Shown: positions 2,032 through 25,889, numbered from the stretch's first letter. The stretch is 64,000 bases of DNA from Geobacter sp. DSM 9736 (GCF_900187405.1 NZ_LT896716.1:3782753-3846752); one strand, 5' to 3'. Made by a program: numbers and translations. Notes: a model not told the origin generated them from the sequence alone.

Positions 2032-4818
2032 TTACCAGTCTCCCGTAACCGGCACATCGCCCGGAATTCCGAATCCGGATACAACCGCGTCCACGCCGTC
2101 ATCCCATGCTCCGTTACCGTTTGTATCCAGGAACCATGTATTGCCGCGGATAACGCCGATCTTGGTGGCTCCGCTGCCGTTCCAGTCGCCGGTCACCGGC
2201 ACGTCGTCCGGGTTCCCGAAGGTGTAGGCTGCATCGATGCCGTCGTCCCAGGTGCCGTTTCTGTTCATGTCCAGATACCACGTGTTCCCCCGCACTACGC
2301 CGATCCTGGTTATGCCGCTCCCGGTCCAGTCGCCGGTTATCGGTTTGTCGCCTGGAATGCCGAAGGAATATGAGGCGTCTCCTTCATCCCATCCCCCATT
2401 GCCGTTCATGTCCAGATGCCACGCGCCGTTCCTGAAGACGCCGATCTTTGTGGCCGATCCGCCGTTCCATTTTCCGGTGACGGGGATGTCGGTGGGGATA
2501 CCGAAGGAGTAGGCGGCATCGATGCCGTCGTCCCATGCGCCGTTGCCGTTGATGTCCAGGTACCACGCGCCGCTGCGGAAGACGCCGATTTGGGTGCCGG
2601 CGCCGGTCCAGCTTCCTACGACGGGGATGTCGCCCGGGATCCCGAACGAGGCGGTTGCGTCGGCTTCAGATTCCCACGCTCCACTGCCGTTTTTGTCGAG
2701 GAACCACTGGCCCTCTCTGAAAACGCCCACTTGTGCAGCTTGCTGGGGCCGCTGCGGTGTCCACAGCACTGCCCTCTCTCCGTCGGTGCCCGCTATCTGC
2801 CCGGAAGCGTTGATGTCTACTGCCTGACAATACCCCCCGAAAAGTGAGGGCAGATAAGAGATGGCGCCCTCTTTCCAGATGAATGCACGAGACTCTGGAA
2901 CAATCCAAAGTTGTTGCTGAACCGACGTGGGGTCAACATGCCCACCGTAGCCCAACCACAATGCTCCGATGATTTCTCCGGCATTGTTCATACCCGTAAC
3001 CGCGCCCACTGTATTGGGGGCGATGGTGCCGAGATAAGTCGTCGTTCCGTTATCCCACAGGAAGGGATACGTATTCGTATTATCAGTGTAGTTGCCTCCT
3101 ACCTGCCCCAGATTATTGAAAGCTGTGAGGCAATTACCCCTTCCATATATTGTGTTCGAGTGGGTGTTGACCCACTGACCGTCTTTCAGGACATAAGTAT
3201 GCTTCTCATACGCCCCGTAGGGCAATTCGCCGCATGCGGCGATATCCCCGTTCTCGTTTATGAATGCGCTGGTCCACCTGCCCCCCACCGGCGAAGAAAT
3301 GTCGGGCACTTTCCCCAGGTCTGACATAATGTCATTCGTCCAAAGGAATATGCGGCGCGAATTGGATATACCTATGATCTGACCCGAGTTATTGATGCCG
3401 TAAGCTCCGCTGACTGTATCTCCATCGAGTGCCCCAAGGTCAGTCATGACCCCTTTGGACCAGAGAAAGGCATGTATGAGGCCCGTCTCCGTGTCACTCT
3501 CGCCGACCACCGCACCGGAATCGTTGATGGCACGAGCGGTGGCTGTTAGCCCGCCCAGTGTGCCGAGATCGGTCAGCGTCCCCTTTTCCCAAAAGTAGGA
3601 GCGGCCCCCCCTTGTTCCGATGACCTGTCCGACCTCGTTGACCGCCACTACGTCGAAGGCCCCCATGTCGGTCATGACGCCATTTTTCCAGAAGAAGGCG
3701 TGATTCTCATTTGTGGCTGTTTTGCTCTGGCCAACTACAACTCCATTATCGTTGTTGGCAACCGCCAAACTCGTGTCCCCACCGAGGGTCCCAAGTTCTG
3801 TGACGGAATAGGCGAGACTTACATGGTCGAAGAGGGCCGTGGAGAGGGCGGCATCATCGTGGCTGGTCACCGCGAGTCCTATGTAGACGGTGCTCGCCAT
3901 GGCAAGGGTGTCGCTTCCCACCAGGACCCAGTTGACCCCGTCTGCCGAAGCATAGCCGCTGATGCTGTTTCCGCTTCGTACGAGCCTTACCCAGTGGGGC
4001 GCCTCGACGTACGGTCCGGAAGTGTAGATAGAGGGGGCGCCGGCGGCAAGGCGCCGCTGAAAGATCGCTGTCGAATAACCGGGCTTGATCTCCATCATTG
4101 CATTGGCTGAATCGGCCGCCAGGGTCTCGCGTATCATGACACCTGCCTTGGCGTACTCGTGTGTCGTATTCTGTAGCGATGCCACACGCGCGGTGATCTG
4201 GCCATCTCCCGTGAGCGTCTGGTAGACGTAACGGAATTCATCCGCGGTTTCCCAGATATCGGCACCCGATCCTTTTATGGTATAGGTGCCTCCGGCGAAA
4301 GCGGCGCTCCCCGGCATGCCGACGGAGCCGATGTCGCCTGATTGCCACGGGGGAGGCAGCAAGTTGAAGGTGATGGGGCTGGAGGTGGCGGCCCTGCCGG
4401 CCGAGTCGGTGGCTCTGGCGGTGAGCGTGTAGCTTCCTTCGGTAATGTATGGTTGGAAGGTATAGGTGAGGGTGCTGGATGTGCTGGTGGTGAGGAGCGT
4501 AGTGCCGTGGTACAGCTCCACCCTGGTAATGGCGGTTCCCGGTTCCGTTGTTGCGGTTGCTGTGACTATCGGAGCGGCGGGAGCGGTGAAAGTCGCGCCA
4601 TCGATGGGCCTGGTGATGGTTACCATTAGAGGCCCTGAGGGTTCTGCATGGACGGCAGGAGTGCCGAGGAGCAGGTTCAGTAGCAGCAGGATCACCAGCA
4701 CGGTTACGTGTCGGAGCCTCGACTTGCCGACTCCTGACCCGGACCAGGGGAAGGGCCCTCTGCCGTGAGGATGTTTCTTTACCTTCGGTTCACCACATGT
4801 TCCAGCAACTGGGTTCAT
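2032..4818 (-). CDS. Secreted HAF-repeat protein with Ig-like, DUF1349-like and five-repeat C-terminal cassette (copy 1)
   Basis: A 928-residue exported protein. Start 4818 follows AGGAGGTGGAGAG; the in-frame ATG 33 bp upstream has a poor ribosome site. A long basic N-region and hydrophobic core end at VHA/EP, a signal-peptidase-I-like site near residue 58. Next come a bacterial Ig-like domain (about 60-145), a concanavalin/DUF1349-like beta-sandwich (about 150-330, containing YAKAGVMIRETLAADSANAM), HAF repeats (about 335-680) and five ~47-residue repeats (about 690-928) ending PVTGDW at the stop. The repeats carry D-x-N-x-N-G-x-W-D loops that resemble calcium loops. It is nearly identical to the next gene upstream, so recently duplicated. 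It is probably a surface or matrix protein; function unknown. Confidence 0.85.
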   Translation of the reverse strand: MNPVAGTCGEPKVKKHPHGRGPFPWSGSGVGKSRLRHVTVLVILLLLNLLLGTPAVHAEPSGPLMVTITRPIDGATFTAPAAPIVTATATTEPGTAITRVELYHGTTLLTTSTSSTLTYTFQPYITEGSYTLTARATDSAGRAATSSPITFNLLPPPWQSGDIGSVGMPGSAAFAGGTYTIKGSGADIWETADEFRYVYQTLTGDGQITARVASLQNTTHEYAKAGVMIRETLAADSANAMMEIKPGYSTAIFQRRLAAGAPSIYTSGPYVEAPHWVRLVRSGNSISGYASADGVNWVLVGSDTLAMASTVYIGLAVTSHDDAALSTALFDHVSLAYSVTELGTLGGDTSLAVANNDNGVVVGQSKTATNENHAFFWKNGVMTDMGAFDVVAVNEVGQVIGTRGGRSYFWEKGTLTDLGTLGGLTATARAINDSGAVVGESDTETGLIHAFLWSKGVMTDLGALDGDTVSGAYGINNSGQIIGISNSRRIFLWTNDIMSDLGKVPDISSPVGGRWTSAFINENGDIAACGELPYGAYEKHTYVLKDGQWVNTHSNTIYGRGNCLTAFNNLGQVGGNYTDNTNTYPFLWDNGTTTYLGTIAPNTVGAVTGMNNAGEIIGALWLGYGGHVDPTSVQQQLWIVPESRAFIWKEGAISYLPSLFGGYCQAVDINASGQIAGTDGERAVLWTPQRPQQAAQVGVFREGQWFLDKNGSGAWESEADATASFGIPGDIPVVGSWTGAGTQIGVFRSGAWYLDINGNGAWDDGIDAAYSFGIPTDIPVTGKWNGGSATKIGVFRNGAWHLDMNGNGGWDEGDASYSFGIPGDKPITGDWTGSGITRIGVVRGNTWYLDMNRNGTWDDGIDAAYTFGNPDDVPVTGDWNGSGATKIGVIRGNTWFLDTNGNGAWDDGVDAVVSGFGIPGDVPVTGDW

Positions 4819-4896
4819 CTCTCCACCTCCTGAAGGTTTTGACGTGCCCATCCTGTTTCACATCATGGTGCGCTCTCTTCTTTTAATCAGGCTGCC

Positions 4897-7695
4897 TCAC
4901 CACGCTCCTGTCACCGGTACATCACCGTGAATGCCGAAGCCGGTGACAACCGCATCCGCCCCTTCATCCCAGAAGCCATTCCCGTTCATGTCGAGGAACC
5001 AGGTGCCGCCGCGGATAACGCCGATCTTGGTGGTTCCGCCGCCGTTCCAGTCGCCGGTCACCGGCACGTCATCCGGGTTGCCGAAGGAGTAGGCTGCATC
5101 GATGCCGTCGTCCCAGGTGCCGTTTCCATTCATGTCCAGATACCACGTGTTCCCCCGCACTACGCCGATCCTGGTTGTGCCGGTCCCGGTCCAGTCGCCG
5201 GTTATCGGTTTGTCGCCTGGAATGCCGAAGGAATATGAGGCGTCTCCTTCATCCCATCCCCCATTGCCGTTCATGTCCAGATGCCACGCGCCGTTCCTGA
5301 AGACGCCGATCTTTGTGGCCGATCCGCCGTTCCATTTTCCGGTGACGGGGATGTCGGTGGGGATACCGAAGGAGTAGGCGGCATCGATGCCGTCGTCCCA
5401 TGCGCCGTTGCCGTTGATGTCCAGGTACCACGCGCCGCTGCGGAAGACGCCGATTTGGGTGCTAGCGCCGGTCCAGTTACCGGTGACGGGAATGTCGGAG
5501 GGGTTTCCGAACGAGGCGGTGGCATCGGATTCGGATTCCCACGTTCCACTGCGGTTCTTGTCGAGGAACCACTCGCCCTCCCTGAAAACGCCCACGTGGG
5601 CAGCTTGCTGGGGCCGCTGCGGTGTCCACAGCACTGCCCTCTCTCCGTCGGTTCCCGCTATCTGTCCGGAAGCGTTGATGTCTATTGCATGATAATACCC
5701 CCCGAAAAGTGAGGGCAGATAAGAGATGGCGCCCTCTTTCCAGATGAATGCCCGAGACGTTAGAGAAATCCAAGGTTGTTGCCGAATCGACGTGGGGTCA
5801 ACATGTCCACCGTAGCCCAACGACAATGCTCCGATAATTTCTCCGGCATTGTTCATACCCGTAACCGCGCCCACCGTATTGGGGGCGATGGTGCCCAGAT
5901 AGGTCGTCGTTCCGTTGTCCCACAGGAAGGGATAGGTATTCGTAACATCAGTGTAGTTGCCTCCTACCTGCCCCAGATTATTGAAGGCTGTGAGGCAATT
6001 ACCCCTTCCACTTATTGTATCGCTATGGGTGTCGACCCACTGCCCCCCCCTCAGGACATAAGTACGCTCATGGTAAGGAAACGGCCATTTGCCGCACCCG
6101 GCGACATCCCCTCTCTCATTTATGAACACGCTGGTCCAATAGGGGTAAGGTAATGATTGGTGTGGAACGCGTCCCAAATCGGTCATCAAACCGTTAGCCC
6201 AGAGAAAAGAGCGATGTCCGTAGAGTGTATTGCTGTACGTTGTTGATGTACCTACGACCTGACCGGAATTGTTTATGTCGTAAGCTCCGCTGGCTGTATC
6301 TCCATCGAGTGTCTCAAGGTCAGTCATGACCCCTTTCGTCCAGAGAAAGGCATGTATCAGGCCCGTCTCCGTTTCACTCTCACCGACCACCGCCCCGGAG
6401 TCGTTGATGGCACGAGCGGTAGCCGTGGGACCGCCCAGGGTGCCGAGATCGGACAGCGCCCCCTTTTCCCAGAAGTAGGAGCGGCCCCCCCTTGTTCCGA
6501 TCACCTGCCCCGCCTCGTTGACCGCCACCACGTCGAAGGCCCCCATGTCGGTCATGACTCCGTCCTTCCAGAAGAAGGCATGATTCTCACCCGTGGCTGT
6601 GTCGCTCTGCCCTACCACGATCCCTGCGTCGTTGAGGGCGACGGCTGAACTCTTGTTGCCGCCGAGGGTGCCCAGTTCGGTGACGGCATAGGCGAGACTT
6701 ACGTGGTCGAAGAGTGCCGTGGAGAGGGCGGTGTTGTCGTGGCTGGTCACCGCAAGGCCGATGTAGACGGTGCTCGCCATGGTAAGGGTGTCGCTTCCCA
6801 CCAGGACCCAGTTGACCCCGTCTGCCGATGCATAGCCGCTGATGGTGTTTCCGCTTCGTACGAGCCTGACCCAGTGGGGCGCCTCGACGTATGGTCCGGA
6901 GGTGTAGATAGAGGGGGCGCCGGCGGCAAGCCGCCGCTGAAAGATCGCTGTCGAATAACCTGGCTTGATCTCCATCATAGCGTTGGCTGAATCGGCCGCC
7001 AGGGTCTCGCGTATCATGACCCCAGCCTTGGCGTACTCATGTGTCGTATTCTGCAGCGATGCCACTCGTGCGGTAATCTGGCCGTCTCCCGTGAGCGTCT
7101 GGTAGACGTAGCGAAATTCATCGGCGGTTCCCCAGATATCCGCTCCCGACCCTTTGACGGTATGGGTGCCGCCGGCGAAAGCGGCGCTCCCCGGCATGCC
7201 GACGGAGCCGATGTCGCCCGACTGCCACGGGGGAGGCAGGATGTTAAAGGTGACGGGACTGGAGGTAGCGACCCTTCCGGCCGAATCGGTGGCTTTGGCC
7301 GTGAGGGTGTAGCTTTCACTGATGTATGGCTCAAAGGTATAATTAAGTGTGCTGGATGTGCTGATGGTGACGAGCTTCGTGCCGTGGTAAAGCTCCACCC
7401 TGGTTATGGCGGTTCCCGGTTCCGTTGTTGCGGTTGCGGTGACTATCGGAGCGGCGGGAGCGGTGAAAGTCGCGCCATCGATGGGCCTGGTGATGGTTAC
7501 CGTTAGAGGCCCTGATGGTTCTGCATGGACGGGAGGAGTGCCGAGGAGCAGGTTCAGTAGCAGCAGGATCACCAGCACGGTCACGTGGCGGAGCCACGAC
7601 TTGCCGACTCCTGACCCCGACCAGGGGAAGGGCCCTCTGCCGTGAGGATGCTTCTTTACCTTCGGTTCACCACATGTTCCAGCAACTGGGTTCAT
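4897..7695 (-). CDS. Secreted HAF-repeat protein with Ig-like, DUF1349-like and five-repeat C-terminal cassette (copy 2)
   Basis: A 932-residue paralogue of the gene at 2032-4818 with the same architecture: signal peptide, Ig-like domain opening LTVTITRPIDGATFTAPAAP, DUF1349/LamG-like sandwich, HAF repeats and five C-terminal repeats ending GFGIHGDVPVTGAW. Start 7695 is set by AGGAGGTGGAGAG. The last ~260 bp (about 4897-5160) is almost base-for-base identical to the end of the neighbouring protease gene (7774-8040), so cassettes recombine between unrelated genes. The HAF region differs from copy 1 mainly between residues about 500 and 600. No enzymatic motif is visible; a structural or ligand-binding surface role is inferred. 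Confidence 0.85.
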   Translation of the reverse strand: MNPVAGTCGEPKVKKHPHGRGPFPWSGSGVGKSWLRHVTVLVILLLLNLLLGTPPVHAEPSGPLTVTITRPIDGATFTAPAAPIVTATATTEPGTAITRVELYHGTKLVTISTSSTLNYTFEPYISESYTLTAKATDSAGRVATSSPVTFNILPPPWQSGDIGSVGMPGSAAFAGGTHTVKGSGADIWGTADEFRYVYQTLTGDGQITARVASLQNTTHEYAKAGVMIRETLAADSANAMMEIKPGYSTAIFQRRLAAGAPSIYTSGPYVEAPHWVRLVRSGNTISGYASADGVNWVLVGSDTLTMASTVYIGLAVTSHDNTALSTALFDHVSLAYAVTELGTLGGNKSSAVALNDAGIVVGQSDTATGENHAFFWKDGVMTDMGAFDVVAVNEAGQVIGTRGGRSYFWEKGALSDLGTLGGPTATARAINDSGAVVGESETETGLIHAFLWTKGVMTDLETLDGDTASGAYDINNSGQVVGTSTTYSNTLYGHRSFLWANGLMTDLGRVPHQSLPYPYWTSVFINERGDVAGCGKWPFPYHERTYVLRGGQWVDTHSDTISGRGNCLTAFNNLGQVGGNYTDVTNTYPFLWDNGTTTYLGTIAPNTVGAVTGMNNAGEIIGALSLGYGGHVDPTSIRQQPWISLTSRAFIWKEGAISYLPSLFGGYYHAIDINASGQIAGTDGERAVLWTPQRPQQAAHVGVFREGEWFLDKNRSGTWESESDATASFGNPSDIPVTGNWTGASTQIGVFRSGAWYLDINGNGAWDDGIDAAYSFGIPTDIPVTGKWNGGSATKIGVFRNGAWHLDMNGNGGWDEGDASYSFGIPGDKPITGDWTGTGTTRIGVVRGNTWYLDMNGNGTWDDGIDAAYSFGNPDDVPVTGDWNGGGTTKIGVIRGGTWFLDMNGNGFWDEGADAVVTGFGIHGDVPVTGAW

Positions 7696-7773
7696 CTCTC
7701 CACCTCCTGAAGGTTTTGACGTGCCCATCCTGTTTCACATCATGGTGCGCTCTCTTCTTTTAATCAGGCTGCC

Positions 7774-9840
7774 TCACCACGCTCCTGTCACCGGTACATC
7801 ACCGTGAATGCCGAAGCCGGTGACAACCGCACCCGCCCCTTCATCCCAGAAGCCATTCCCGTTCATGTCGAGGAACCAGGTGCCGCCGCGGATAACGCCG
7901 ATCTTGGTGGTTCCGCCGCCGTTCCAGTCGCCGGTCACCGGCACGTCATCCGGGTTGCCGAAGGTGTAGGCTGCATCGATGCCGTCGTCCCAGCTGCCGT
8001 TTCCATTCATGTCCAGAAACCAGGTGTTGCCACGCACGACGCCGATTCTGGTCGTGCCGGTCCCGGTCCAGTCGCCGGTTACGGGCTTGTCGCCGGGGAT
8101 GCCGAAATAACGGGAGGCATCCTGAATGTCCCACGTGCCGTTGCCGTTCATGTCCAGGTACCACGCGCCGTTCCTGAAGACACCGATCTTTGTGGCCGAT
8201 CCGCCGTTCCATTTTCCGGTGACGGGGATGTCGGTGGGGATACCGAAGGAGTAGGCGTCGTCGATGCCGTCCTCCCACGCGCCGTTGCCGTTCATGTCGA
8301 GGTACCAGGCGCCGCTTCGGAAGACGCCGATCTGTGTGCCGGCGCCGGTCCAGCTTCCGGCGACGGGAATGTCTCCAGGGTTTCCGAACGAGAAGGATGA
8401 GTCAGCTCCGGCGTCCCATGTACGGGTTCCGTTCAGGTCAAGATGCCATCGACCTCCCCGGAAAACCCCGATCCGGTCGTTGGCGCGCAATCGGTTGTAG
8501 GCGGCGGGGACGTTCAGGCTACCGTATCCGTAGGCATTGTCGGGGCCGAAGACGCCGACATCGCCGGCGGAATCTCGAAAAGCGGCTTCTATCACTGATG
8601 CGTCGAGATCGGGAAACGCCTGAATGAGGAGAGCCATGGCTCCTGCGGCATGTGGGGCGGCGAAGGATGTGCCGGAAACGGTGGCGTAGGCTCCGGGTAT
8701 GCCGAAGTCAAGGTCTGTGGTGAGGATGTCCACTCCCGGTGCGACGACCACCGGCGAAATGCCGCCGCCGCATGCAGACGGGCCCCGGCTGCTGAAGCTC
8801 GCGACCGTGCCGGTGCTGTCGACGGCTCCGACCGAGAAGGCGGAGGAATAATCGGCGGGGCTGACGATGGTTGATGGAAATGGTCCGTCATTGCCCGCGG
8901 CGAAGGTCATGGCGATTCCGGCTGCCTTCAGGATTTCTATGTCCGGATGAAACTCCGTAATGCAGCCGTAGGTGTTTTCGATCCCCCAGGAGTTGTTGAC
9001 CACATCGGGAGCATCGTCGGTGTCTGGGTTGCCGTCCGGGTCGAGCAGCCATTGGAAACCGCGATGCACGGAGCTGTAGGAGGCGGCGCCGGCGTCGTTG
9101 AAGATCTTGACAGCTATCCACCTGGCGCCGGGAGCGACGCCGATGGAGCTTCCTCCCGCGTCTCCCCCCACCATGATCCCCATGGTCTTTGTCCCATGGC
9201 CGTCCCGATCGGCGGGGGAGTCGTGCTCCTGGTTCGGGTCGAACCAGCTGTTGGTGCCGCCGCGCCATCTGTCCCGCAAGTCCGGATGTGATGCATCCAC
9301 CCCCGAATCCATGTTGGCAACTACGACACCCTCGCCGGTATAGCCGAGATTCCACAGTTCGGGCGCTCCGACCGCCGCGATGTTCCATTCGGGAGATGCG
9401 GGATTGCTGTAGACCGTCTTCGGCATGGGGATCGAGGCATCGAGGATTATGCTTTCCACCTGGGGGAGCTGTGCGAGTTCCTGAATTAACTGGGCATTCG
9501 CGGTGAGTGCGACTCCGTTGACGAGCCAGAGTGGGCGGACCTTTCTTATCTTCTTCTTGTCCAGGAAGTTCCGTATCTCTCGCTGAGATGCGTCCGCAAC
9601 CCTCCTGAGAGCTCTGATGATCTTCGACCGGCGTGTACGCTTGTCTCGGTCACGGATGCTGTCTACCCGGGCCTTCCCCGTTGCCCTGACGATGATGGGA
9701 AATTCATGCTGCGATCCGGTTTCCATGACCTCCACGACCCGGGGGTCCAGATTGCCCGCTCCGGCAGGGCCGACTCCCGCCATGCAGAAGAGAATGACGA
9801 GGGGAAAGAATATTGGGTAGCGCTTTATCCTTCTCTTCAC
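7774..9840 (-). CDS. Subtilisin-family (S8) secreted serine protease with five-repeat C-terminal cassette
   Basis: A 688-residue exported protease. The GTG start at 9840 follows GGGGGAG and leads into a signal peptide (hydrophobic run FFPLVILFCMAGVGPAGAG). An inhibitor-I9-like propeptide spans about residues 35-140. The catalytic triad is visible: Asp in NMDSGVDASHPDL (about 175), His in DGHGTKTMGI (about 213) and Ser in SGTSFAAPHAAGAM (about 393), plus the oxyanion Asn in FAAGNDGP (about 317). Residues about 455-688 are the five-repeat cassette, ending PVTGAW. It lies between the HAF genes and a lipoprotein gene in the leftward cluster. A role in maturing or turning over the co-encoded surface proteins is plausible but inferred; specificity cannot be read from the sequence. 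Confidence 0.92.
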   Translation of the reverse strand: MKRRIKRYPIFFPLVILFCMAGVGPAGAGNLDPRVVEVMETGSQHEFPIIVRATGKARVDSIRDRDKRTRRSKIIRALRRVADASQREIRNFLDKKKIRKVRPLWLVNGVALTANAQLIQELAQLPQVESIILDASIPMPKTVYSNPASPEWNIAAVGAPELWNLGYTGEGVVVANMDSGVDASHPDLRDRWRGGTNSWFDPNQEHDSPADRDGHGTKTMGIMVGGDAGGSSIGVAPGARWIAVKIFNDAGAASYSSVHRGFQWLLDPDGNPDTDDAPDVVNNSWGIENTYGCITEFHPDIEILKAAGIAMTFAAGNDGPFPSTIVSPADYSSAFSVGAVDSTGTVASFSSRGPSACGGGISPVVVAPGVDILTTDLDFGIPGAYATVSGTSFAAPHAAGAMALLIQAFPDLDASVIEAAFRDSAGDVGVFGPDNAYGYGSLNVPAAYNRLRANDRIGVFRGGRWHLDLNGTRTWDAGADSSFSFGNPGDIPVAGSWTGAGTQIGVFRSGAWYLDMNGNGAWEDGIDDAYSFGIPTDIPVTGKWNGGSATKIGVFRNGAWYLDMNGNGTWDIQDASRYFGIPGDKPVTGDWTGTGTTRIGVVRGNTWFLDMNGNGSWDDGIDAAYTFGNPDDVPVTGDWNGGGTTKIGVIRGGTWFLDMNGNGFWDEGAGAVVTGFGIHGDVPVTGAW

Positions 9841-9870
9841 AACATTCTCCCCCCGGAAGTGTTGCGGCGG

Positions 9871-10323
9871 CTACTGCACGGTGATGTTCTCCGCCCTGAA
9901 GTCGCCGATGACCACCGAGACCTTGTTCCCCTTCTTCACGTAGCCTCCGGGGTTGGCGAACATGACGAAATAGTTGCGTTCTGGTTGGGGAGGGCGGGTG
10001 CTTCGCAGGGCGCCGACCTTCGGGGGCTCCGGAACGGCGAAGACGGCGCCGGTGGCCTCATCCACGAGGTAGGGTTTAAGCTTCCTGTCGAAGAGGGGCT
10101 TCGCTTTCTCCGGGTCGAGCACCCGGTAGCGGAAGTCGAGCATGTAGCCCCCCGCCGACTGCTTGAGGCTCAGCACTTTTACTCCCCACTTTTCCTCGAT
10201 GGATGATTCCTGCCGTGAGAGATCCGAGGAGGGAGGGGGGGCGGGTCGCGTCGTGGCGCAGCCCGTTGCCGAAGCGATGCATAATGCGAAGATGGAAATG
10301 GAAACGAACGATCTGTAAAACAT
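9871..10323 (-). CDS. Putative lipoprotein of unknown function
   Basis: A 150-residue protein whose N-terminus (MFYRSFVSISIFALCIASATGC) is a lipoprotein signal with Cys near residue 22. Gly follows Thr before the Cys (ATGC), which fits the lipobox loosely. GGAGAGG precedes the ATG. After a Pro-rich linker comes a mixed alpha/beta region containing EKWGVKVLSLKQSAGGYMLD and RNYFVMFANPGGYVKKGNKV, without a motif I can assign. It ends 30 bp before the protease start and is probably co-transcribed with it. It could be an envelope partner of the exported proteins; this is inference from position only. Confidence 0.75.
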   Translation of the reverse strand: MFYRSFVSISIFALCIASATGCATTRPAPPPSSDLSRQESSIEEKWGVKVLSLKQSAGGYMLDFRYRVLDPEKAKPLFDRKLKPYLVDEATGAVFAVPEPPKVGALRSTRPPQPERNYFVMFANPGGYVKKGNKVSVVIGDFRAENITVQ

Positions 10324-10535: not shown

Positions 10536-12269
10536 CTACCAGCGGCCGGCTACAGGAACGTCCGTCGGTATGCCGAATTCGGGAAACACGCCGTCGATCC
10601 CATCGTCCCAGGCGCCATTGCCGTTCAGGTCGAGAAACCAGGTGCTGCCGCGCACGACCCCGATCCTGGTGACGCCGGTGCCGGTCCAGTCGCCAGTGAC
10701 GGGTTTGTCTGACGGAATGCCAAAGGAATAGACGCCATCGACTCCCTCATCCCAATAACCATTGCCGTTCAGGTCGAGAAACCAGGTATTCCCGCGGATT
10801 ACGCCGATGTAGGTAGTTCCGCTGCCGGTCCAGTCGCCGGTAACCGGTTTATCGCCCGGATTACCGAACTGGGTGATAAAATCCGTTCCATCCTCCCAGA
10901 TTCCGTTGCCGTTCGTATCGAGAAGCCATTGTCCGGAGCGAAACACCCCTATCCTTGCCGTTCCTGCTCCGGTCCAGTCCCCGGCGACGGGAATGTCTCC
11001 TGTAGTCCCGAACGTATAGGCTGCATCGATTCCGGGGTCCCATTGCCTGTTACCGTTCACGTCAAGAAACCATTGATTTCCTCCCCGAACGATGCCGACT
11101 TTTTTGGTTCCGCTGCCGTTCCAGTCCCCGATGACTGGCTGGTCTCCTGTCAGACCGAACCAGAAACCGGTATCGCCTGCATCCCAAGCCCCGTTGCCGT
11201 TCACGTCAATGAACCACTCGCCGTTGCGGAATACGCCTATGGACTCGGCCGATTCCGGGGGCACAACGAGAGAGGCGATCAACCCGCCGGGATAACTTGC
11301 CCCGTTTGTCAATGAGAGCTTGCGGTCATACAGCGGATAGGTTCCGTAACGGGAGGATGTCATGAGAGCATCGCTGGTTTTTGCCGGAGGGAGAAGCACC
11401 GAATAACCTTTTCGGACATGGCCGTACGGACTGCCGTCCTCGGCGATTACCGACAGGTTAAGCCCCTGTACGAGCGGCACGTGTGTCTTGAGGCCAGCGT
11501 TCAGGAATCGCAACAGGGTCGTCTGACCTGGAATCCCAGCCGGTATCGGCGCATTCCCCGGATACGGCTGACCGTTTATCAAAAAATATTTCGGTTCATA
11601 GTCGATAGTACTGGTAATGCCCGCTGGTGGCTCCGTGCCGTATGTGCCGGCGGCTACGTGTCCGTGAAGCACCGGATCGATTTCGCTGAATACCAGGAGT
11701 GCTTCGGCATCAAAGGCACTGGCCGGCCCGTAGGCTTGGCCGGCCGCGGCGTTTTTGATGACAGCGCCGTACAGTCCCATCTGAACCTGGACGGCCGGAT
11801 GTGTGCCACTTTGGTAGAGGTAGGTGCCGGGCCTGAGACTGGGCCATGAATAGGTGTTGGTCGTACTGTTATCGGGTGGTGTCTCTGTAGTAAAGGACTT
11901 CACCCGTTGACGGCCTTCCCCGTCGGTAAACTTTACGGGAGCCATCGTGGCTCTTTGCCCGGGAATCACTATGGAAACAGGCTCGACCAAAGGCCCGGTC
12001 AATGCGTTCCTCAGATGAACCGTGAGGGCGGCATCGGTCGGCGGCACGGACAGCACCGGCCCCGGAGACGTTGGAGCGCCGCAACTGCTGTAGGTGCCGT
12101 CGGTGCACTGGGCGAAGCCCCACATGGTAACAACCGAGCTGTCCGGCATGGTCTTGGTGAATGTCTGCGCCCGTAACCAGTACTCGGCGCCAATTGAAAT
12201 CCCGCTTGATCCCAGCAAGGCGGCCACTCCCAAAAGGAAAGCCGGGACGGTCTTTTTCAGAGTGTTCAT
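10536..12269 (-). CDS. Cupredoxin-fold protein without copper ligands, with five-repeat C-terminal cassette
   Basis: A 577-residue exported protein. Start 12269 is preferred over the ATG two codons upstream because GGAGG lies 7 nt before it. A signal peptide ends near GISIGA/EY. Residues about 30-335 resemble two multicopper-oxidase cupredoxin domains (SPGPVLSVPPTDAALTVHLR; TYLYQSGTHPAVQVQMGLYG). The positions that normally hold HxHG and HxH copper ligands read VSIVIPG and YQSGTHP, so no trinuclear or type-1 site is evident. Residues about 340-577 are the five-repeat cassette, ending PVAGRW. It lies directly downstream of two ligand-bearing cupredoxin genes. It is likely a non-catalytic structural or partner subunit. 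Confidence 0.75.
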   Translation of the reverse strand: MNTLKKTVPAFLLGVAALLGSSGISIGAEYWLRAQTFTKTMPDSSVVTMWGFAQCTDGTYSSCGAPTSPGPVLSVPPTDAALTVHLRNALTGPLVEPVSIVIPGQRATMAPVKFTDGEGRQRVKSFTTETPPDNSTTNTYSWPSLRPGTYLYQSGTHPAVQVQMGLYGAVIKNAAAGQAYGPASAFDAEALLVFSEIDPVLHGHVAAGTYGTEPPAGITSTIDYEPKYFLINGQPYPGNAPIPAGIPGQTTLLRFLNAGLKTHVPLVQGLNLSVIAEDGSPYGHVRKGYSVLLPPAKTSDALMTSSRYGTYPLYDRKLSLTNGASYPGGLIASLVVPPESAESIGVFRNGEWFIDVNGNGAWDAGDTGFWFGLTGDQPVIGDWNGSGTKKVGIVRGGNQWFLDVNGNRQWDPGIDAAYTFGTTGDIPVAGDWTGAGTARIGVFRSGQWLLDTNGNGIWEDGTDFITQFGNPGDKPVTGDWTGSGTTYIGVIRGNTWFLDLNGNGYWDEGVDGVYSFGIPSDKPVTGDWTGTGVTRIGVVRGSTWFLDLNGNGAWDDGIDGVFPEFGIPTDVPVAGRW

Positions 12270-12352
12270 TGTCATTCCTCCTCACATTGGCACTTTGTCG
12301 CCCACTTTCAGGGACGGCGACGAATGGCTGTTTTCCAATGATTTGAAACCAA

Positions 12353-15143: not shown

Positions 15144-18100
15144 CTACCACTTGCCCGTAACGGGAAGGTCTCCCGGGATACCGAATCCGGATATCGTCTG
15201 GTCGGTTCCGTCCCACCCGCCGTTGCCGTTCATGTCCAGGAACCAGGTGCCGCCGCCACGGACGACGCCAATCTTGCTTATGCCGTTTCCGGTCCAGTCG
15301 CCGGTAACCGGCACGTCACCCGGAATACCGAATGAATATGCCGCATCGATGCTGTTATCCCAGACGCCGTTGCCGTTCATGTCGAGGAACCATGTGTTGC
15401 CGCGGACAACGCCGATCTTCGTCGTACCGTTGCCGGTCCAGTCTCCGGTGATCGGCTTGTCGCTCGGAATGCCAAAAGAGTAAACAGCATCTACACCCTG
15501 GTCCCAGGCTCCGTTGCCGTTCATGTCGAGGAACCAGGTATTGCCGCGGACAACGCCGATCTTCGTCGTGCCGCCGCCGTTCCAATCGCCGGTCACCGGC
15601 CTGTCGCCGGCAACGCCGAAGGAGAAGGTGCTGTCGGTACCTGCATCGAGGAAGCCGTTATTGTTGCTGTCCAGGTACCAGGTGCCGTTCCTGAAGACTC
15701 CGGCCTTGAAGGTCCCGCTGCCGGTCCAGTCCCCGGAAACGGGCTGGTCGCCCGGCATGCCGAAGACAAAGGTTCTGTCGCCGGCGTCCCAGGTACCGTT
15801 CTTGTTCTGATCGAGGAACCATTCTGCGTTACGGACCGCACCGATTCCCGTAACCGGGCCGGCAGGTACCGTAGCCGTGTACATCTCGTCGGCACCTATG
15901 TCGGGTCCCGCTCCATTCGGGCGATTTTCTCCGTCGTAATCCGTTGCCGGCGCCGCTGCGGCGCTAGCCGCGTCAACGGCGGAGGATGCAGCCCTGATAT
16001 GGTAGTCTCCCGCCGTCTCGGTCAGTGGCGTGAAACGGACCGTGATGGCATTGCCCCCTTCGTCGATGACGGCGGCAATAACTATCTGGTTGAAATAACT
16101 GTTGACGAATGCCGGGTTGCCGGCGGTGTTACCGTTACCCGTGTAGTTTGCGCCATCGCCAGGGGTGAGGCTGGTAAGCAGGCAGTTGCTCGGATTCAAA
16201 AAAGTCGGGACACCCGTAACGCTGAGGTCCCACACCGGCATGGCCGGGTTCGGCAGCAGGCCGCCGACGCCATTGTTGGTGGTGTAGAAGGAGCGGTTGT
16301 TACGCACGATGTTGTTAACCAGCACGGGATCCGAGAATGTCTGGCCGCTGGCCGCAGCGATACCGGTCGCCCCGGTGCTGTGGGCATTGGAGACTATTCC
16401 CGCCCCTTGCGGGGTCGAGGTCGTAGCTCCCGCCCCGAATGCGTTTGCCGCCGTCGCCGTGCTGTCGTTGTCGGCGATCGTGTTGTTGACGATCCGTACC
16501 CTTGCCGCATCCTGCAGGCCAATGCCGCCTGCTGCGAATCCGGCCACATTGTTGACGATCATGTTGTTTTCGATGATAAGCTGATACCAGGCTGCCGGGT
16601 TGCCGGGCGCTGCGAGTACATCCTGCCCGTTCACCGCAAAGGCTCTGATGCCGCCCCCTGTACCGACGCCCGCCAGGTTGCCCTGGATCAGGTTTGAACG
16701 AATGGCGACGTTGCCGGCCCCGGCCGACGCTGCGCCCGGAACCTGCTCACCGCCGACAAATATGCCGGCGCCTTCGCCAAATGCCGCGCCACCGAAGGCG
16801 ACCTCGTTGAACGTGATCCTGTTGTCGGCGATGAGGCCGTTGTTGCTGAGACCCGTGTGGGCAACGCCGCCGCCGTTGAAGCGCGAAAAGTTGCCGCTGA
16901 TGAGGTTGTCCGTTACGGCATACCCGGTTGAACCGGAATAGATGGCAATACCGCCGCCACCCTGAACGCCGCCGTTCTTGGTTATTTCGTTGTTGCGAAT
17001 GGTGATGTTCGGGTTGTTCGAAACTCGCTGGGGCATGCCGATGGCGATGCCGCCGCCGAAATTCCCCTGGTTGCCCGTCAACCTGTTATTGCTGATGGTC
17101 AGCCCGGTTACGTTGTCATCCACGTAGATGCCGCCACCCATAATGGCGCCGAAAACCTTGAAGCCGTCGATAAGAGTGGGATTGCTGAAGCCGGGAGCGG
17201 TCCCCAACACCATTATTCCCGGAGCTTCATTGGCCAGGAAGGGGTCGGTCCCCAGGATGCTCAGGATCTTGTCATGCCATGCGCTGAGCTTGTTGGCCGG
17301 AGATGGATTTGCGTAAATGATGGTCGAACCGGCTCCGCTCCCCTGAAGCTTGACGTTTTTGTACAGAATGACGTTCTCGCTGTACGTGCCGGGAGGTACG
17401 ATGATCAGATCGCCGCTTGCAGCCGTATCCACCGTGTTCTGGATTGCATTGGGCGAACCCGGGACGACTTGTCTCACGCCGGTACAGCTGGCCACAACAT
17501 GAAGTGTCACCCCTATCTCAGTGGCATTCCCGTTATCACCACGGACAACGATGAGCGTTCCGGTCGCAAGGCCTGCGGGGACCGTGGCGCTGATGGAGGC
17601 ATCACTCCAGGCGGTAACCGGAAGCGGCACACCGTTCAGGGTCACCGAGCCCTGTACCGAGCCGAAACCGTAATCCCTGGTAACCGTTGCTGGACTGCCC
17701 GGAATGTTCGGATCGAAGTCGGGATTCGGCACTGCAGTCAATCCCAACGACGTGATGGTGATGTTGCGCGTGCTGCCGCAGACTACTGGGCCGGTGAGAG
17801 ATCCGGTCACACTGGCTATGACGGGAACCAGCGTGGCAGGCTCGACATCTGGTCCTGCCTGCGGGAAACCGGTAAAGGAAGCAACCGGGACGAGAGGCGT
17901 ATCCAGGTACGTAGTCTTCCCTGACCAGTAATCGAAGGTCCACGGAGTGACGCTGTAGCGGGGATCGTAGAACGGGTCGATGGTGCCGTCCGGCATGATC
18001 GGGTGATTGAGTACGGCGGTGATCATGTTAGGAGACATGCCGGCGGGAATTGCCGCGTTCGCCGTGAATGTCGAGGGTAGCAGCGCGTTGTAGGAACCCC

Positions 18101-20687
18101 ACTCGTCCGTATAGACACGCGCCACTTCGTTACCCTGCCAATCCTGCATAGATACGGGAAGCCACGCAGGAGACGTTTTCTCGCCGAAAACCGGGCTGCC
18201 GGCATTGAATTCTGCCGCCAGGTCATTATTGCAGAAACCGACCACACGGGCAGCTTTGGGCACCTCGGTAAACATGAAGAAATCGGCAGCAGTATTCTGT
18301 GTCGGCTGAACGGTTACCTGCTTCATGGAGCAGAGCGGTGTCACCGACCCGGCAAGGGGAGGATCGATCGCAACCTGCTGGTCGAACAGGGTAAGCCAGT
18401 TGGGAACGACATGGTCAAACCCGGTATTTTCAATCGTGCCGACGCAGACGGCCGGGAGTAACAGCTGGCTCGGCCGGAACTCGTCGCCAAAATCAACGTT
18501 CTTGTCTTCCTCTTTTACGGTCTCGTATCCGGACGGTGTGACCGCTTCCACAATATACGTCCCCGGGTCAAGTGCACCGCCTGCCGGTGATCCGAAAGCG
18601 TAACCGCCATCGAACACACCAGGACGCACCTGGTTCCAGGTTCCATAGTTGTCGTAGCAGGGCTGCACGCCCGCTATCGGCGGCAGATCCTGAACGCAAC
18701 CGGTCGGTTTGTTGTCGTCCCAGCTGTCGGTGGTAGCCAGTTCGATGGCGTCTCCCAGACTGAAATTGGTGCCGTCACCGCTGCGAACTACGTCTTCAGG
18801 GCCTTTCGGGGCGGTATTGTCGGACCAGCCGAAAGGATAGTTGTCCACATCACATAGCTGCACTCCTGCTACGCCGTTCAGGTCATCTATGATCCCATTG
18901 GCATCGGTGTCCCTGTAGAGACAGACCTGGACCCTGGGGATGCCGGGGCACCAGGGCTCACCTGCTGCCATCCGGGGGTCATTTTCGGCACGGGTCACAT
19001 CATAGAACACGATGCCGCTGATACCGCCGTTCTCGTTCAGCTGGTAGTTGACCTTGCCCCAATCGATGACATTGGTCTGGTTGAGAAACAGGTGCATCGC
19101 CTGGGTCAGAACCGGTCCCGTTTCCGTGCGCGACAGATCGTTGCCCGTATTCGGGTTTACCATAACCTGGGGCTGAGGATTCAGGGCTCCGAAAGACGGA
19201 ACTATCCAGCCGCTTGCAGGAGGAATCTGCCCGCCGTAATCAACCGCAGCAGTCATGCCGGTCGGCTTGAACCGCAGATAATCGACCTCGGCAACAAGCC
19301 ATTTGAAAAAGGGAAAAACCTCTTCGAGGGAATATTCACCTCCCGGAACCGTCGTCGTAGCCTGGTACACCGAGCCGTCCCTGAACCGGAGGTTAACTGC
19401 CTGATTCGCTATTCCCTGCTCTCCTTCATCACGGAACCCGTTCTGATTCACATCGAAAAATACTGATCCCTTCAAAGTTCCGAACCACCGGAACGACATC
19501 ACGTTGCCGAGGTCGATCGTGCCAGCGCCAGCCGGAACGGTGACGGTGTTGAAGCCGAACAGGGCATCGAGAGGCCGGTCCCACGTCACGAGCTGGTAAG
19601 TTCCCGGAGGAACGTTCTCGATGGTGAAATTGCTCTCTCCGTCACAGGGCACGGCTATCAACCCTTTGTTGACGGCAGCGAGATTGTTTAGACCGACCCA
19701 GCAACCCGATACCGGCGGCCCCTCGAAAAACCCCTGATTCGTCGGAGGGCGACCGAAGTGATTGAAAATGTTGCGCCCCTTGATCGTCGCCCCTCCCGGG
19801 CCTTGTCCGGCCCATGGGAGCTCCTCCGGCTTTACGAATCCGATGAACACGTGATTGAAGCCGGTGCCGAACCCCTCGATGAAAAGGGGTGGTTCATTCG
19901 CCTTAACCCATGCGTCGATGCCTGGGGTCCCTTCGATGGTGGAGGTCTGGGTCCACCCCGCAGCGTCCCCCGGTGGCACAGCCCTGATGCCGTACTTGCC
20001 GGGAACAAGATTTTTGATGAAGGCCTGACCATTGGCATCGGTGAGAATGACGCCGGTTCCCATTACATCCACACTGGAGCAATCGCTGGCGCTATAGGTT
20101 GTCCCGAGGGGATTGCCGCACGCATCCTGGGACATCTGCCCGCCAAGGTCGAAAATCTTGATTGAAGCGCCTGCAATCCCTTCTTCTCCCGCATCGGGGG
20201 TGTTGTTGATCGGGTTATGGTCCTTGAATATGAAGATGGAGACCTGGGCGGTCGGCAGAGGGTTCTGGTGGACTTTGACCGTAACTGCCGAGGCACCTGC
20301 TCCAACCATTGTCCCGCTTATGCTGAAGCCGGCGTCAGGGAGGACAGAGAGGAAGTAGCGCTTATTTGAGTCAGGCACGGTTATGCTTGTGCTTCCTCCG
20401 GCTGCATTCCCCTTGGCGACGACTGGAGCATGGCTGTTATGGATGTCGAGGCCGATGCTGTCTCCCACCCGTACGCCCGGAGGCGACTGGTTAGTGTTAT
20501 CCTCTTCCAGCAGCCATCTGAAGCCGCTTACGGGGAGATTGCAGTTGTTGGCGGAGTCGCAACCGACCACATTCACCGTGAAGGCGTAGAGGTCGGTCTG
20601 TAGAGCGAGCCCCGCCAACAGCGTTACGCAGGTTGCAAAGAACCGGCGAAATCTGCTTCGAGAAGCCCTGCAGGTGTTTCTTCTCAT
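15144..20687 (-). CDS. Giant surface protein: SdrB/Cna-B-like, IPT/TIG and parallel beta-helix domains with five-repeat C-terminal cassette
   Basis: A 1,847-residue exported protein starting MRRNTCRASRSRFRRFFATC after GGAGGAG. Two or more SdrD-B/Cna-B-like modules lie at about 140-300 and 400-500 (GSVFFDVNQNGFRDEGEQG) and again near 565-700 (GISGIVFYDV, YRDTDANGIIDDL). An IPT/TIG-like Ig domain is at about 985-1085. From about 1095 to 1560 is a right-handed beta-helix (PNAIQNTVDTAASGDLIIVP, then many NNxIxxN rungs), as in pectate-lyase-like adhesins. Residues about 1612-1847 are the five-repeat cassette, ending PVTGKW. It is the first gene of the leftward cluster. Cys-rich loops in the middle may be disulphide-linked. 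It is probably a scaffold or adhesin; no catalytic motif was recognised. Confidence 0.88.
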   Translation of the reverse strand: MRRNTCRASRSRFRRFFATCVTLLAGLALQTDLYAFTVNVVGCDSANNCNLPVSGFRWLLEEDNTNQSPPGVRVGDSIGLDIHNSHAPVVAKGNAAGGSTSITVPDSNKRYFLSVLPDAGFSISGTMVGAGASAVTVKVHQNPLPTAQVSIFIFKDHNPINNTPDAGEEGIAGASIKIFDLGGQMSQDACGNPLGTTYSASDCSSVDVMGTGVILTDANGQAFIKNLVPGKYGIRAVPPGDAAGWTQTSTIEGTPGIDAWVKANEPPLFIEGFGTGFNHVFIGFVKPEELPWAGQGPGGATIKGRNIFNHFGRPPTNQGFFEGPPVSGCWVGLNNLAAVNKGLIAVPCDGESNFTIENVPPGTYQLVTWDRPLDALFGFNTVTVPAGAGTIDLGNVMSFRWFGTLKGSVFFDVNQNGFRDEGEQGIANQAVNLRFRDGSVYQATTTVPGGEYSLEEVFPFFKWLVAEVDYLRFKPTGMTAAVDYGGQIPPASGWIVPSFGALNPQPQVMVNPNTGNDLSRTETGPVLTQAMHLFLNQTNVIDWGKVNYQLNENGGISGIVFYDVTRAENDPRMAAGEPWCPGIPRVQVCLYRDTDANGIIDDLNGVAGVQLCDVDNYPFGWSDNTAPKGPEDVVRSGDGTNFSLGDAIELATTDSWDDNKPTGCVQDLPPIAGVQPCYDNYGTWNQVRPGVFDGGYAFGSPAGGALDPGTYIVEAVTPSGYETVKEEDKNVDFGDEFRPSQLLLPAVCVGTIENTGFDHVVPNWLTLFDQQVAIDPPLAGSVTPLCSMKQVTVQPTQNTAADFFMFTEVPKAARVVGFCNNDLAAEFNAGSPVFGEKTSPAWLPVSMQDWQGNEVARVYTDEWGSYNALLPSTFTANAAIPAGMSPNMITAVLNHPIMPDGTIDPFYDPRYSVTPWTFDYWSGKTTYLDTPLVPVASFTGFPQAGPDVEPATLVPVIASVTGSLTGPVVCGSTRNITITSLGLTAVPNPDFDPNIPGSPATVTRDYGFGSVQGSVTLNGVPLPVTAWSDASISATVPAGLATGTLIVVRGDNGNATEIGVTLHVVASCTGVRQVVPGSPNAIQNTVDTAASGDLIIVPPGTYSENVILYKNVKLQGSGAGSTIIYANPSPANKLSAWHDKILSILGTDPFLANEAPGIMVLGTAPGFSNPTLIDGFKVFGAIMGGGIYVDDNVTGLTISNNRLTGNQGNFGGGIAIGMPQRVSNNPNITIRNNEITKNGGVQGGGGIAIYSGSTGYAVTDNLISGNFSRFNGGGVAHTGLSNNGLIADNRITFNEVAFGGAAFGEGAGIFVGGEQVPGAASAGAGNVAIRSNLIQGNLAGVGTGGGIRAFAVNGQDVLAAPGNPAAWYQLIIENNMIVNNVAGFAAGGIGLQDAARVRIVNNTIADNDSTATAANAFGAGATTSTPQGAGIVSNAHSTGATGIAAASGQTFSDPVLVNNIVRNNRSFYTTNNGVGGLLPNPAMPVWDLSVTGVPTFLNPSNCLLTSLTPGDGANYTGNGNTAGNPAFVNSYFNQIVIAAVIDEGGNAITVRFTPLTETAGDYHIRAASSAVDAASAAAAPATDYDGENRPNGAGPDIGADEMYTATVPAGPVTGIGAVRNAEWFLDQNKNGTWDAGDRTFVFGMPGDQPVSGDWTGSGTFKAGVFRNGTWYLDSNNNGFLDAGTDSTFSFGVAGDRPVTGDWNGGGTTKIGVVRGNTWFLDMNGNGAWDQGVDAVYSFGIPSDKPITGDWTGNGTTKIGVVRGNTWFLDMNGNGVWDNSIDAAYSFGIPGDVPVTGDWTGNGISKIGVVRGGGTWFLDMNGNGGWDGTDQTISGFGIPGDLPVTGKW

Positions 20688-21760: not shown

Positions 21761-21794
21761 AGAAGACTTGAGTCAAATATTCCAAGGAGGAACT

Positions 21795-24700
21795 ATGTAC
21801 GGGCGAAATCTGTTGAAGAAGATGTTCCTGCTGACGACCGCCGTCCTTTCCTGTGGAACCGGCGCCGCCTTGGCAGCGACTCCGGTGCCGAATCCGGGAG
21901 GCACGCCTGATTACTTCGCCACACCGAACTGGGCGAACAGCCCTCCCCTCAGAAAATTCGTGGATACCCTTCCGGGGCTCGGGGTGGCAAATGCAAACAA
22001 CCTGGGTCAGTACATGCCGGTTGCGATCCCTGACAGGAGCACGTATCCGGGGTCGGATTATTACGAGATCGAGATCGGCGAATACAATGAGAAGATGCAT
22101 TCCGACCTCCCGCCGACCAGGCTTCGGGGATACCGTCAGACAAACACCAACAATGCATCAGTCAGGCAGTTCCGGTATCTGGGCCCCCTGATCATCGCCC
22201 GCAAGGACCGGCCGGTGCGCATCAAGTTCACCAACAGTCTTCCGACCGGTTCGGGTGGAGATCTCTTCGTCCCGACAGATACAACCGTTATGGGTTCGGG
22301 TGGGTTCGTGATCGATTATGATCCCGCGACGAAGCTCCCCATCCCCGAGATTTCAGGGATGTTCTCACAGAACCGCGCCACTCTACATCTCCATGGGGGG
22401 CACTCTCCCTGGATCAGCGATGGTACGCCGCATCAGTGGATTACTCCGAAGGGGGAAGATACCCCTTATCCGAAAGGGGTCAGTGTCGGATATGTGCCCG
22501 ATATGTGGTTCGATGCGAACGGGAATACGATAACCTCATGCGCCGGGCAGACTACCTGTGCCGTTCCGGGAGCGACCAACAATCCGGGCCCGGGAGCGCA
22601 AACCTACTACTGGAGCAATCAGCAGAGTTCGCGGCTCATGTTCTACCACGATCATTCCTGGGGAATCACGCGCCTCAACGTCTATGTGGGTGAGGCTGCG
22701 GGTTTTCTGCTTACTGACGACACCGAGCAGAGCCTGCTCTCAGCCGGGCTCATTCCAGCAGACCAGATTCCGCTCATCATCCAGGACAAGACCTATGTGG
22801 ACGAGACAACCCTTCCGGAGACCGATCCCACGTGGAATTGGGGTACCCAGCCGGGCTATGCCGTTACCGGCGATCTCTGGTGGCCCCATGTCTACATGCC
22901 TGCCCAGAACCCCTTCAATCCCAACATGAGCGGGATGAATGACTTCGGCCGGTGGCATTACGGCCCCTGGTTCTTTCCACCGACCCCTATTTGCGGGTCG
23001 AATCCCAATGCCGTAGTTCCCTATTGCATCACTCATGGGCCGGTGCCGAATCCCCTCTACGACCCAAATTGCGACCCGGCAACCGCCTCCAACGGGTTCT
23101 GCCAGCCCCCCGAGATGCCTGGTACCCCCAATCCCTCCTGGGGAGCTGAAGCATTTCTGGATACGATGATAGTCAATGGGACCGCGTATCCCTCAGTCAC
23201 CGTCAGTCCGAAGGCATACCGCCTGCGGGTACTGAACGCCGCCCACGACCGGTTCCTCAATCTTCAGATATACAAGGCGAGCCCGATTGTAAGCAGCGTC
23301 ACGCTTACCAACGGGGGGAGCGGCTACACCTCGGCTCCGACGGTCAGCATCACCGGTGGTGGCGGCAGGGGTGCTACCGCGGTGGCAACAGTGGACCTGA
23401 CTCCCGGCAGCCCCACATTCGGTCGGGTCACCGGTATCGATGTCACCAGCGTAGGAAGCGGCTATACCTCGAACCCGACGGTCAGCATCACCGGTGGCGG
23501 CGGCAGCGGTGCTTCTGCCACGGCAGCCATTTATACCGCACCGACGGAAGTAGGAATGGTTCCGGCTGCTCCAACTTCGGGGTTCCCAGAGCTCTGGCCG
23601 ACCGACGGCAGGGAAGGGGGAGTGCCCGATCCTGCCACGAGGGGCCCCGCCATGATCCAGATCGGGACGGAAGGCGGCTTCCTGCCCAAGCCCGTACTTC
23701 TCCCCAACCAGCCGGTCCAGTGGAATACAGATCCTACGATGTTCAACGTCGGCAACGTGCTCCAGCAGTCGGAGGGGGGCGGCACGCTCTTCCTCGGTCC
23801 GGCGGAGCGGGCGGACATCATAGTAGACTTCTCACAGTACGCCGGCCAGACTCTAATTCTCTACAATGACGCACCTACGGCGTTTCCCGCCCTAGACCCG
23901 CACTACGACTACTATACGGGCGCCCCCGACCGCCGCGACATCGGCGGGTATGGTCCGATTCCTCCCGGGGTAGGTCCTAACATCCGGACCGTCATGCAGA
24001 TAAGGGTAAGCGGAAGCGGGGGAGCCGCCCCGGTCGACGGCTACAGCCCGGCTACACTGGCCGCGCTGAACAGCGCATTTGCCTCGACATCCACCAGCCC
24101 CGGTGTATTCGCATCCGGACAGGATCCGATCATCGTCGGCCAGACCGCCTACAACTCCACTTACAACACCACGTTCCCTTCCACCTGGCCCAACTGGGGT
24201 ATCTCGCGGATCTCGGATACTGCCCTGAGCTTCAGGCAGCCCGATGGAACCCTCGTGAGCAATTTCCCGATGCTGACCAAGGCAATTCACGACGAAATGG
24301 GGGCGACCTTCGACGACTTCGGAAGGATGAGTGCCAAGCTTGGGCTCGAAGTACCATTCGTGAACGCGGCAAATCAGAACTTCATCCTCCAGAACTATGT
24401 CGATCCCCCCACTGAACTCGTCAAACCGGGCGAGTTCCAGATCTGGAAGATTACGCACAACGGCGTTGATACTCACCCCATCCACTTCCATCTCTTCGAG
24501 GTCCAACTGCTCAACCGCGTCGGATGGGATGGATTCATGAGATTGCCCGACCCGAACGAACTGGGGTGGAAGGAGACGATCAGGATTGCACCGCTGGAAG
24601 ATACCATTGTCGCACTCCGGCCCAAGCCGGCGGAAGTCCCCTTCAAGCTGCCCAACAGCATTCGTCCGCTGAATCCTTCGGCTCCTCTCGGCTCAATGAT

Positions 24701-25889
24701 GGGCTTCTCCCAGATCAACATCACCGATGGAGGCGCCCTGACCCCACCGGCCACTAACCAGATGACCAACTTCGGGTGGGAGTTCGTCTGGCACTGCCAT
24801 ATTCTGAGCCATGAAGAGAACGACATGATGCGGTCGCTTGCGCTGGCGATAGCTCCCGATGCGCCTTCGAACCTTGCCGCCATCATGTCCGGAGATCCGC
24901 TGCGGTCAAATCTGAGGTGGACGGACAATTCCAAGAATGAAACCCACTGGACAGTTCAGAGAGCACCTTCAACAGTCGGCCCCTGGACCACTATCGCCGT
25001 CGTGCCGTCTGCTACGGGAGCGACGACGGGGGGCATTGCGGCATACGCCGATACCACGATAGCCCCGGCTACCGGCTATTACTACCGGGTTATCGCCTCC
25101 AACATCGTCGGAAGCACCATCACCAGCTACTCCACTACCACTGCCGATTCGGCACCCAGCAACATCGCAGCCGCCGGACCACCGATCTCCGGTATCGGCG
25201 TCTTCCGCAGCGGCACCTGGCATCTCGACCTGAACAAGAACGGTTCCTGGGATGCGACCGACAGAACCTTCCTGTTCGGTGCCGCGGGTGACAGGCCTGT
25301 CACCGGAGATTGGAGCGGTGACGGTGCGTTCAAGGCCGGCTTCTTCCGTGCGGGCATCTGGACCCTGGATGCGAACAACAGCGGGATCTTCGATCAGGGA
25401 GACAGGACGTTCAGCTTCGGGATTGCAGGGGACAAGCCCGTAACAGGGGACTGGAACGGCACCGGAACGACGAAAGTCGGTACCGTACGCGGCAATACGT
25501 GGTTCCTCGACATGAACGGCAACGGTACGTGGGATGCCGGCGATGCCACATATTCTTTCGGTATACCGACAGACATTCCGGTGACCGGAGACTGGACCGG
25601 CAGCGGTACGACAAAAATCGGTGCCGTACGGGGCAATACGTGGTTCCTCGACATGAACGGCAACGGTACGTGGGATGCCGGTGATGCTACTTACTCTTTC
25701 GGCATACCGACAGATATTCCCGTGACCGGAGACTGGACCGGCACCGGACGGACCAGAATCGGCGTCGTTCGCGGCGGCTCCACCTGGTACCTGGATATTA
25801 ACGGCAACGGTGCCTGGGATAACAGCACCGATGCGGTGGTATCGGGTTTCGGTATCTCCGGAGATATTCCGGTGACCGGGGTCTGGTAG
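21795..25889 (+). CDS. Large multicopper oxidase with FN3 domain and five-repeat C-terminal cassette
   Basis: A 1,364-residue exported enzyme. Start 21795 follows AAGGAGGAACT. All four copper motifs are present: [13 protein letters not shown] (about residue 197), [11 protein letters not shown] (about 281), [11 protein letters not shown] (about 893) and [14 protein letters not shown] (about 997). Type-1, type-2 and type-3 sites should therefore be complete. The spacing and [14 protein letters not shown] are CotA/bilirubin-oxidase-like and also resemble outer-surface oxidases of Geobacter. Between motifs 2 and 3 (about 497-580) are two Gly-rich repeats ([19 protein letters not shown]). An FN3-like domain follows at about 1012-1125, then five cassette repeats to the end (PVTGVW). 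Likely substrates are Mn(II), Fe(II), Cu(I) or phenolics; the sequence cannot choose between them. Confidence 0.92.

Follow-up and report, generated by a model that had tools for sequence, protein, structure and literature searches.

A C-terminal cassette of five repeats, predicted to form a β-propeller, on six proteins encoded beside an exopolysaccharide locus in Geobacter

PEP-CTERM is a C-terminal tag of many secreted proteins that is linked to exopolysaccharide loci, and it consists of a terminal motif together with a transmembrane helix and a basic tail. Another module of secreted multidomain proteins is the VCBS-like propeller (PF13517/PF01839; Pereira and Lupas 2021, PMC8023676), in which blades of four antiparallel strands close into a toroid and loop CD carries a conserved G and W. 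The VCBS supercluster includes the tachylectins and the integrins; a DxDxDG motif in loop AB is not universal among its propellers and is missing from tachylectin-like members (PMC8023676). VCBS propellers typically bind carbohydrates (PMC9218822). Tachylectin-2 (1tl2) and an ancestral tachylectin (5c2m) have five blades of about 47 residues. In the UmbA lectins of umbrella toxins, some families of which are five-bladed, a propeller domain of lectin type sits at the C-terminus of secreted proteins and binds cell-surface polysaccharide (PMC13274773). Secreted cytochromes are anchored by the exopolysaccharide of Geobacter (PMC9244359). How bacteria of the Geobacter type hold their secreted redox enzymes in this matrix is an open question, and in the literature on Geobacter matrix anchoring we found no polymer-binding domain named.

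We analyzed a stretch of 64,000 nucleotides from Geobacter sp. DSM 9736 (“the window”; NZ_LT896716.1:3782753-3846752), in which six proteins end in the same cassette. Five of the cassettes are on the minus strand and belong to HAF/Ig protein 1 (ORF 2032-4851, cassette 2032-2730), HAF/Ig protein 2 (ORF 4897-7728, cassette 4897-5595), a Peptidase_S8 subtilase (ORF 7774-9840, cassette 7774-8472), a degenerate cupredoxin protein (ORF 10536-12275, cassette 10536-11240) and an SdrB/right-handed β-helix giant (ORF 15144-20687, cassette 15144-15845). The sixth, on the plus strand, ends a multicopper oxidase (ORF 21768-25889, cassette 25194-25889), for which the in-frame ATG at 21795 is the more likely start. 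Translation of the six ORFs and division at the beginning of the repeat gave, for each, exactly five terminal repeats with the stop codon directly after the final G-x-W, just as a first-pass annotation of this DNA had described. Units 1 to 4 are 47-49 residues long and the final unit 42-43; the cassettes align in register with about a hundred invariant columns common to all six, and NGNGxWD is present in most blades. The oxidase is complete, as had been claimed, with all four copper motifs (three HxH and one HCHxxxHxxxxM). Two other details needed adjustment: the extra residue before FG in the final unit had been assigned to five proteins, which indeed have SGFG or TGFG, but it is present in all six (PEFG in the cupredoxin protein), and the hosts, described as six unrelated proteins, are of only five kinds because HAF proteins 1 and 2 are a tandem duplication with 88% identity at the DNA level. 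All six hosts start with a hydrophobic, signal-peptide-like N-terminus. A profile search of the whole genome (3.96 Mb) returned the six window cassettes only, with E-values of 1e-120 to 1e-130, while Pfam and NCBIfam scans of the window proteins gave no model that covers the repeat. The six-protein pattern is far from chance.

Repeat identity inside the cassettes is high (0.54-0.58). Between the six cassettes, identity averages 60-90% for blades of equal index and is lower for blades that differ in index, which indicates that whole cassettes have been copied. The clearest case is the pair formed by HAF protein 2 and the subtilase, whose cassettes share 88% DNA identity and whose last blades are 98% identical in protein; outside the cassettes these two proteins are unrelated, and thus the exchange was recent. 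A seventh gene of HAF type (774-2102, minus strand) ends in a decayed remnant of the final cassette unit (VVPGFGIPGDLPVRKLVN); about 18 terminal residues of its cassette are left, and their frame is altered. Among the cassette genes, and likewise on the minus strand, are a small protein with a lipoprotein-like N-terminus and no Pfam match (9871-10323), which has copies of 54-59% identity beside cassette genes on three Nitrospirae contigs (L015, L016 and L025), and two proteins without a cassette that are kept in the same cluster elsewhere, one with a cupredoxin domain (Cu-oxidase_3; 12373-13728) and one of multicopper-oxidase type (13882-15057).

The structure of the cassette from ORF 15144-20687 was predicted with AlphaFold2 from a 34-row in-register alignment. 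As in the analogy drawn by the first-pass annotation, the model is a five-bladed propeller related to tachylectin-2, and it is highly ordered (mean pLDDT 96.7, pTM 0.92), with 20 strands, four per unit, in the order B-C-D, then four times A-B-C-D, then A. That the cassette folds as one closed five-bladed β-propeller is nearly certain on this model; strand order and the tachylectin-2 match suggest that the first strand pairs with the last. The chain would open with strand B of blade 1 and close with the strand A that completes the same blade, the usual velcro closure. Closure at strand A would account both for there being five units and for a stop codon right behind G-x-W, and the A-B loop is missing from the final unit since its strand A completes blade 1. 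The fixed repeat number had been taken as a pointer to a sorting role; because five blades close the ring, no sorting rule is needed to explain it. The best match among solved structures was ancestral tachylectin 5c2m (Z 12.9), followed by tachylectin-2 (1tl2; Z 12.5, with 211 residues aligned over a nearly identical fold span), the UmbA4 lectin (9oee; Z 11.2) and PVL (Z 9.9). Sequence identity to the tachylectins is 8-11% (11% to 1tl2), with no sequence match, and neither phmmer nor a profile search found a relative of the cassette among PDB sequences. Tachylectin-2 is a free lectin whereas the cassette is a fused bacterial module, and the likeness in fold does not imply GlcNAc binding. UmbA lectins, which combine a trypsin-like domain with the C-terminal lectin, go with UmbB/UmbC partners, and UmbA4 differs in having six blades and a trypsin-like partner domain, compared with the HAF, subtilase, cupredoxin, SdrB and oxidase hosts of the window.

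As to the family, 12 of the 34 aligned homologues match Pfam FG-GAP_3 (PF13517; best 1.2e-9), whereas the window proteins give no match at E 0.01. Together with the structure matches, this places the cassette family in the VCBS supercluster. The earlier description of an undescribed system is therefore too strong (PMC8023676): the VCBS propeller superfamily is known, and the cassette family forms an uncatalogued branch within it, sharing its four-stranded blades, toroid closure, loop CD with G and W, and secreted multidomain hosts. The window cassettes depart from VCBS-like propellers in escaping Pfam recognition and in having a DxNxNGxWD loop CD instead of DxDxDG in loop AB. Their loop AB is degenerate (DWTGSGTTK), and the D at position 5 of the metal motif is present in 4% of window loops versus 77% in other phyla, where the canonical DxDxDG is kept in the same alignment. 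Conversely, Dx[ND]x[ND] in loop CD occurs in 87% of window blades versus 13% elsewhere. Given the loss of the one motif and the enrichment of the other, Ca2+ binding by the DxNxNGxWD loop, which the annotation had proposed, is plausible from sequence as a site shifted from AB to CD; the metal-binding loop of a propeller thus seems to have moved. The GW motif of loop DA′, a VCBS pocket motif that is not universal, is absent, with FG-x-P-x-D in its place.

A scan of species genomes with two 8-residue peptide patterns, which do not impose a count of five, identified 77 loci in Nitrospirae, relatives of Geobacter, Acidobacteria, Planctomycetes, Actinobacteria, Chloroflexi and archaea, the archaeal ones being methanogenic or methanotrophic. 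The propeller family is thus spread over many bacterial and archaeal phyla. Of the arrays, 121 are not truncated at a contig end; 85 of these are five-bladed and two ten-bladed. Twelve three-blade arrays, counted by eye in the same 121, form the final portion of a 2+3 set that flanks an insert, and true six-blade arrays are rare. In Planctomycetes, blades 2 and 3 are separated by an insert of about 60 residues whose place does not vary (loci L033, L034, L038-L040, L044, L046, L048, L051, L056, L059 and L061). The ten-blade arrays are C-termini of Geobacter proteins (L020, 4789-7485; L028, 2-3397) and presumably form two five-bladed rings; an AlphaFold2 model of a 10-repeat array reached a pLDDT of 55, too poor to judge a 2 × 5 arrangement. 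Terminal position is a strong habit, 69 of the 85 five-blade arrays finishing within 20 residues of the stop, but not the rule that had been suggested, as the rest include N-terminal and internal arrays, such as those that precede a polysaccharide deacetylase or a glucose/sorbosone dehydrogenase. Subtilase, multicopper oxidase, RCC1, fn3/Ig and DUF5122 domains are also found fused to the arrays. Instead of the variable number, cytoplasmic hosts and disorder that would speak against a dedicated role, the number is nearly constant, the hosts examined look extracellular and the structure model is highly ordered. Viral contigs and plasmids contained no relatives of the cassette, so nothing points to carriage by phages or plasmids. 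Searches of the literature for the repeat motif strings found nothing.

The cassette cluster adjoins an exopolysaccharide locus, which is the new observation here. To the left of the cluster, the window opens with the 5′ part of a Poly_export/SLBB (Wza-like) exopolysaccharide export gene (1-522, minus strand; the whole gene spans genome positions 3781157-3783274), beyond which lie Wzz-like, flippase, Wzy-like and glycosyltransferase genes. The HAF gene with the decayed cassette sits between this exporter gene and the cluster, and the first intact cassette is 1.5 kb away. A close orthologue of the exporter (63-71% identity) was found in 9 of 141 Geobacterales genomes, and cassettes in 13, including all nine with the close exporter (P = 1.5e-11 by genome and 2e-4 by genus, uncorrected for shared ancestry). 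In the remaining four cassette genomes, one of which is 69% complete, the cassettes are divergent or partial. A cassette gene lies upstream of the exporter on the same strand in eight of the nine genomes; the gap is 0.2-1.5 kb for seven of these and 9.6 kb for the eighth; the ninth is a draft with cassette and exporter on different contigs. Further polysaccharide exporters are present in the same genomes, and in the eight genomes the cassette that is nearest the close exporter does not lie beside these others. One Nitrospirae contig has a cassette subtilase gene followed, 80 bases on, by the start of a Wzz-like gene. An exporter-cassette pairing across the rest of the sampled phylum was rejected: among the genomes sampled outside Geobacterales, 21 encode a similar exporter but no cassette, and two encode cassettes but not the exporter. 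In other phyla, most cassette loci have no polysaccharide genes within 6 kb.

The multicopper oxidase provides a control. Its core is present in 77 of the 141 Geobacterales genomes, and the exporter therefore follows the distribution of the cassette rather than that of the oxidase; an explanation of the exporter association by oxidase linkage alone was rejected on this ground. Three oxidase homologues without the cassette (genomes G020, G018 and G054) have in its position another module of five repeats, with 50-residue units, a different C-terminal propeller of FG-GAP type (L161, 152-4186; L162, 754-4539; L164, 164-4027). A scan of the G020 and G054 tails gave matches to FG-GAP and FG-GAP_3 above the cut-off, and in G020 and G018 the chain ends with the same strand as in the cassette. 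In four other oxidases (G003, G009, G029 and G030), fn3- or Ig-like arrays were seen by eye at the C-terminus. The numbers for neighbouring exporters are small: a different polysaccharide exporter lies about 15 kb away in two of the three oxidases with the FG-GAP-type propeller, and an exporter is near none of five others (the four with fn3/Ig tails and G046, whose tail was not read).

A lectin-related predicted ring beside polysaccharide genes suggests that the cassette tethers enzymes to the cell's own slime, and the idea of an anchoring or docking role in the first-pass annotation stands. We consider it probable that the cassette is an exchangeable propeller of lectin type that holds secreted enzymes in the co-encoded exopolysaccharide matrix, its ligand being inferred. 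The propeller would bind the polymer that the adjoining exopolysaccharide locus makes and exports, and the bound oxidases, protease and surface proteins would stay in the biofilm matrix. The cassette would spread between neighbouring genes as a unit and could be swapped for other binding modules. UmbA targets the surface polymer of other cells, whereas the polymer of the cassette is probably the cell's own. The most credible of the alternatives, though an unlikely one, is that the propeller docks onto another protein, either one of the outer membrane or S-layer or the SLBB exporter itself, and is no lectin. VCBS/FG-GAP propellers do mediate protein contacts as well, as in integrins (PMC8023676, PMC9218822), and the co-occurring partner is the exporter itself; however, the nearest structure matches are lectins, the exporter is present without cassettes in many other genomes, and the tails that stand in for the cassette are FG-GAP and fn3/Ig modules of a generic kind.

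The same exchange of tails bears on the view that the propeller is a structural cap or stabilizing spacer that has no specific ligand and owes its spread to duplication and gene conversion. The high identity of repeats within cassettes and the copying between neighbours would fit such an origin, but replacement by other binding modules and the tight co-occurrence with one particular type of exporter make it improbable. We give equally little credence to a domain recognized for secretion (by type II secretion, for example), with the exopolysaccharide link reflecting shared ecology only. While the window hosts always have signal-peptide-like N-termini and the cassette is mostly C-terminal, it is N-terminal or internal in the polysaccharide deacetylase and glucose/sorbosone dehydrogenase hosts, most oxidase homologues lack it, and no secretion genes were found next to it. 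With PEP-CTERM the cassette shares a C-terminal place on secreted proteins and a link to an exopolysaccharide locus, and the window exporter scores below the cut-off of the XrtA/PEP-CTERM export model. It differs in being a predicted folded ring with neither a transmembrane helix nor a basic tail; the proteins finish at strand A (G-x-W-stop) with no C-terminal sorting tail beyond, and an NCBIfam scan of the window proteins gave no PEP-CTERM match.

Under the matrix-tethering reading, the cassette is a concrete candidate for a polymer-binding domain whose likely ligand is encoded next door and for which natural domain swaps serve as controls. More tentatively, and with some doubt on our part, each type of exopolysaccharide locus may be paired with its own C-terminal five-bladed propeller as a form of address to the matrix. 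If so, exchanging the propeller would direct the same oxidases and proteases to another polymer. Outside the cluster, the window also encodes a protein with DUF4062 and HEAT repeats (36294-38831, plus strand).
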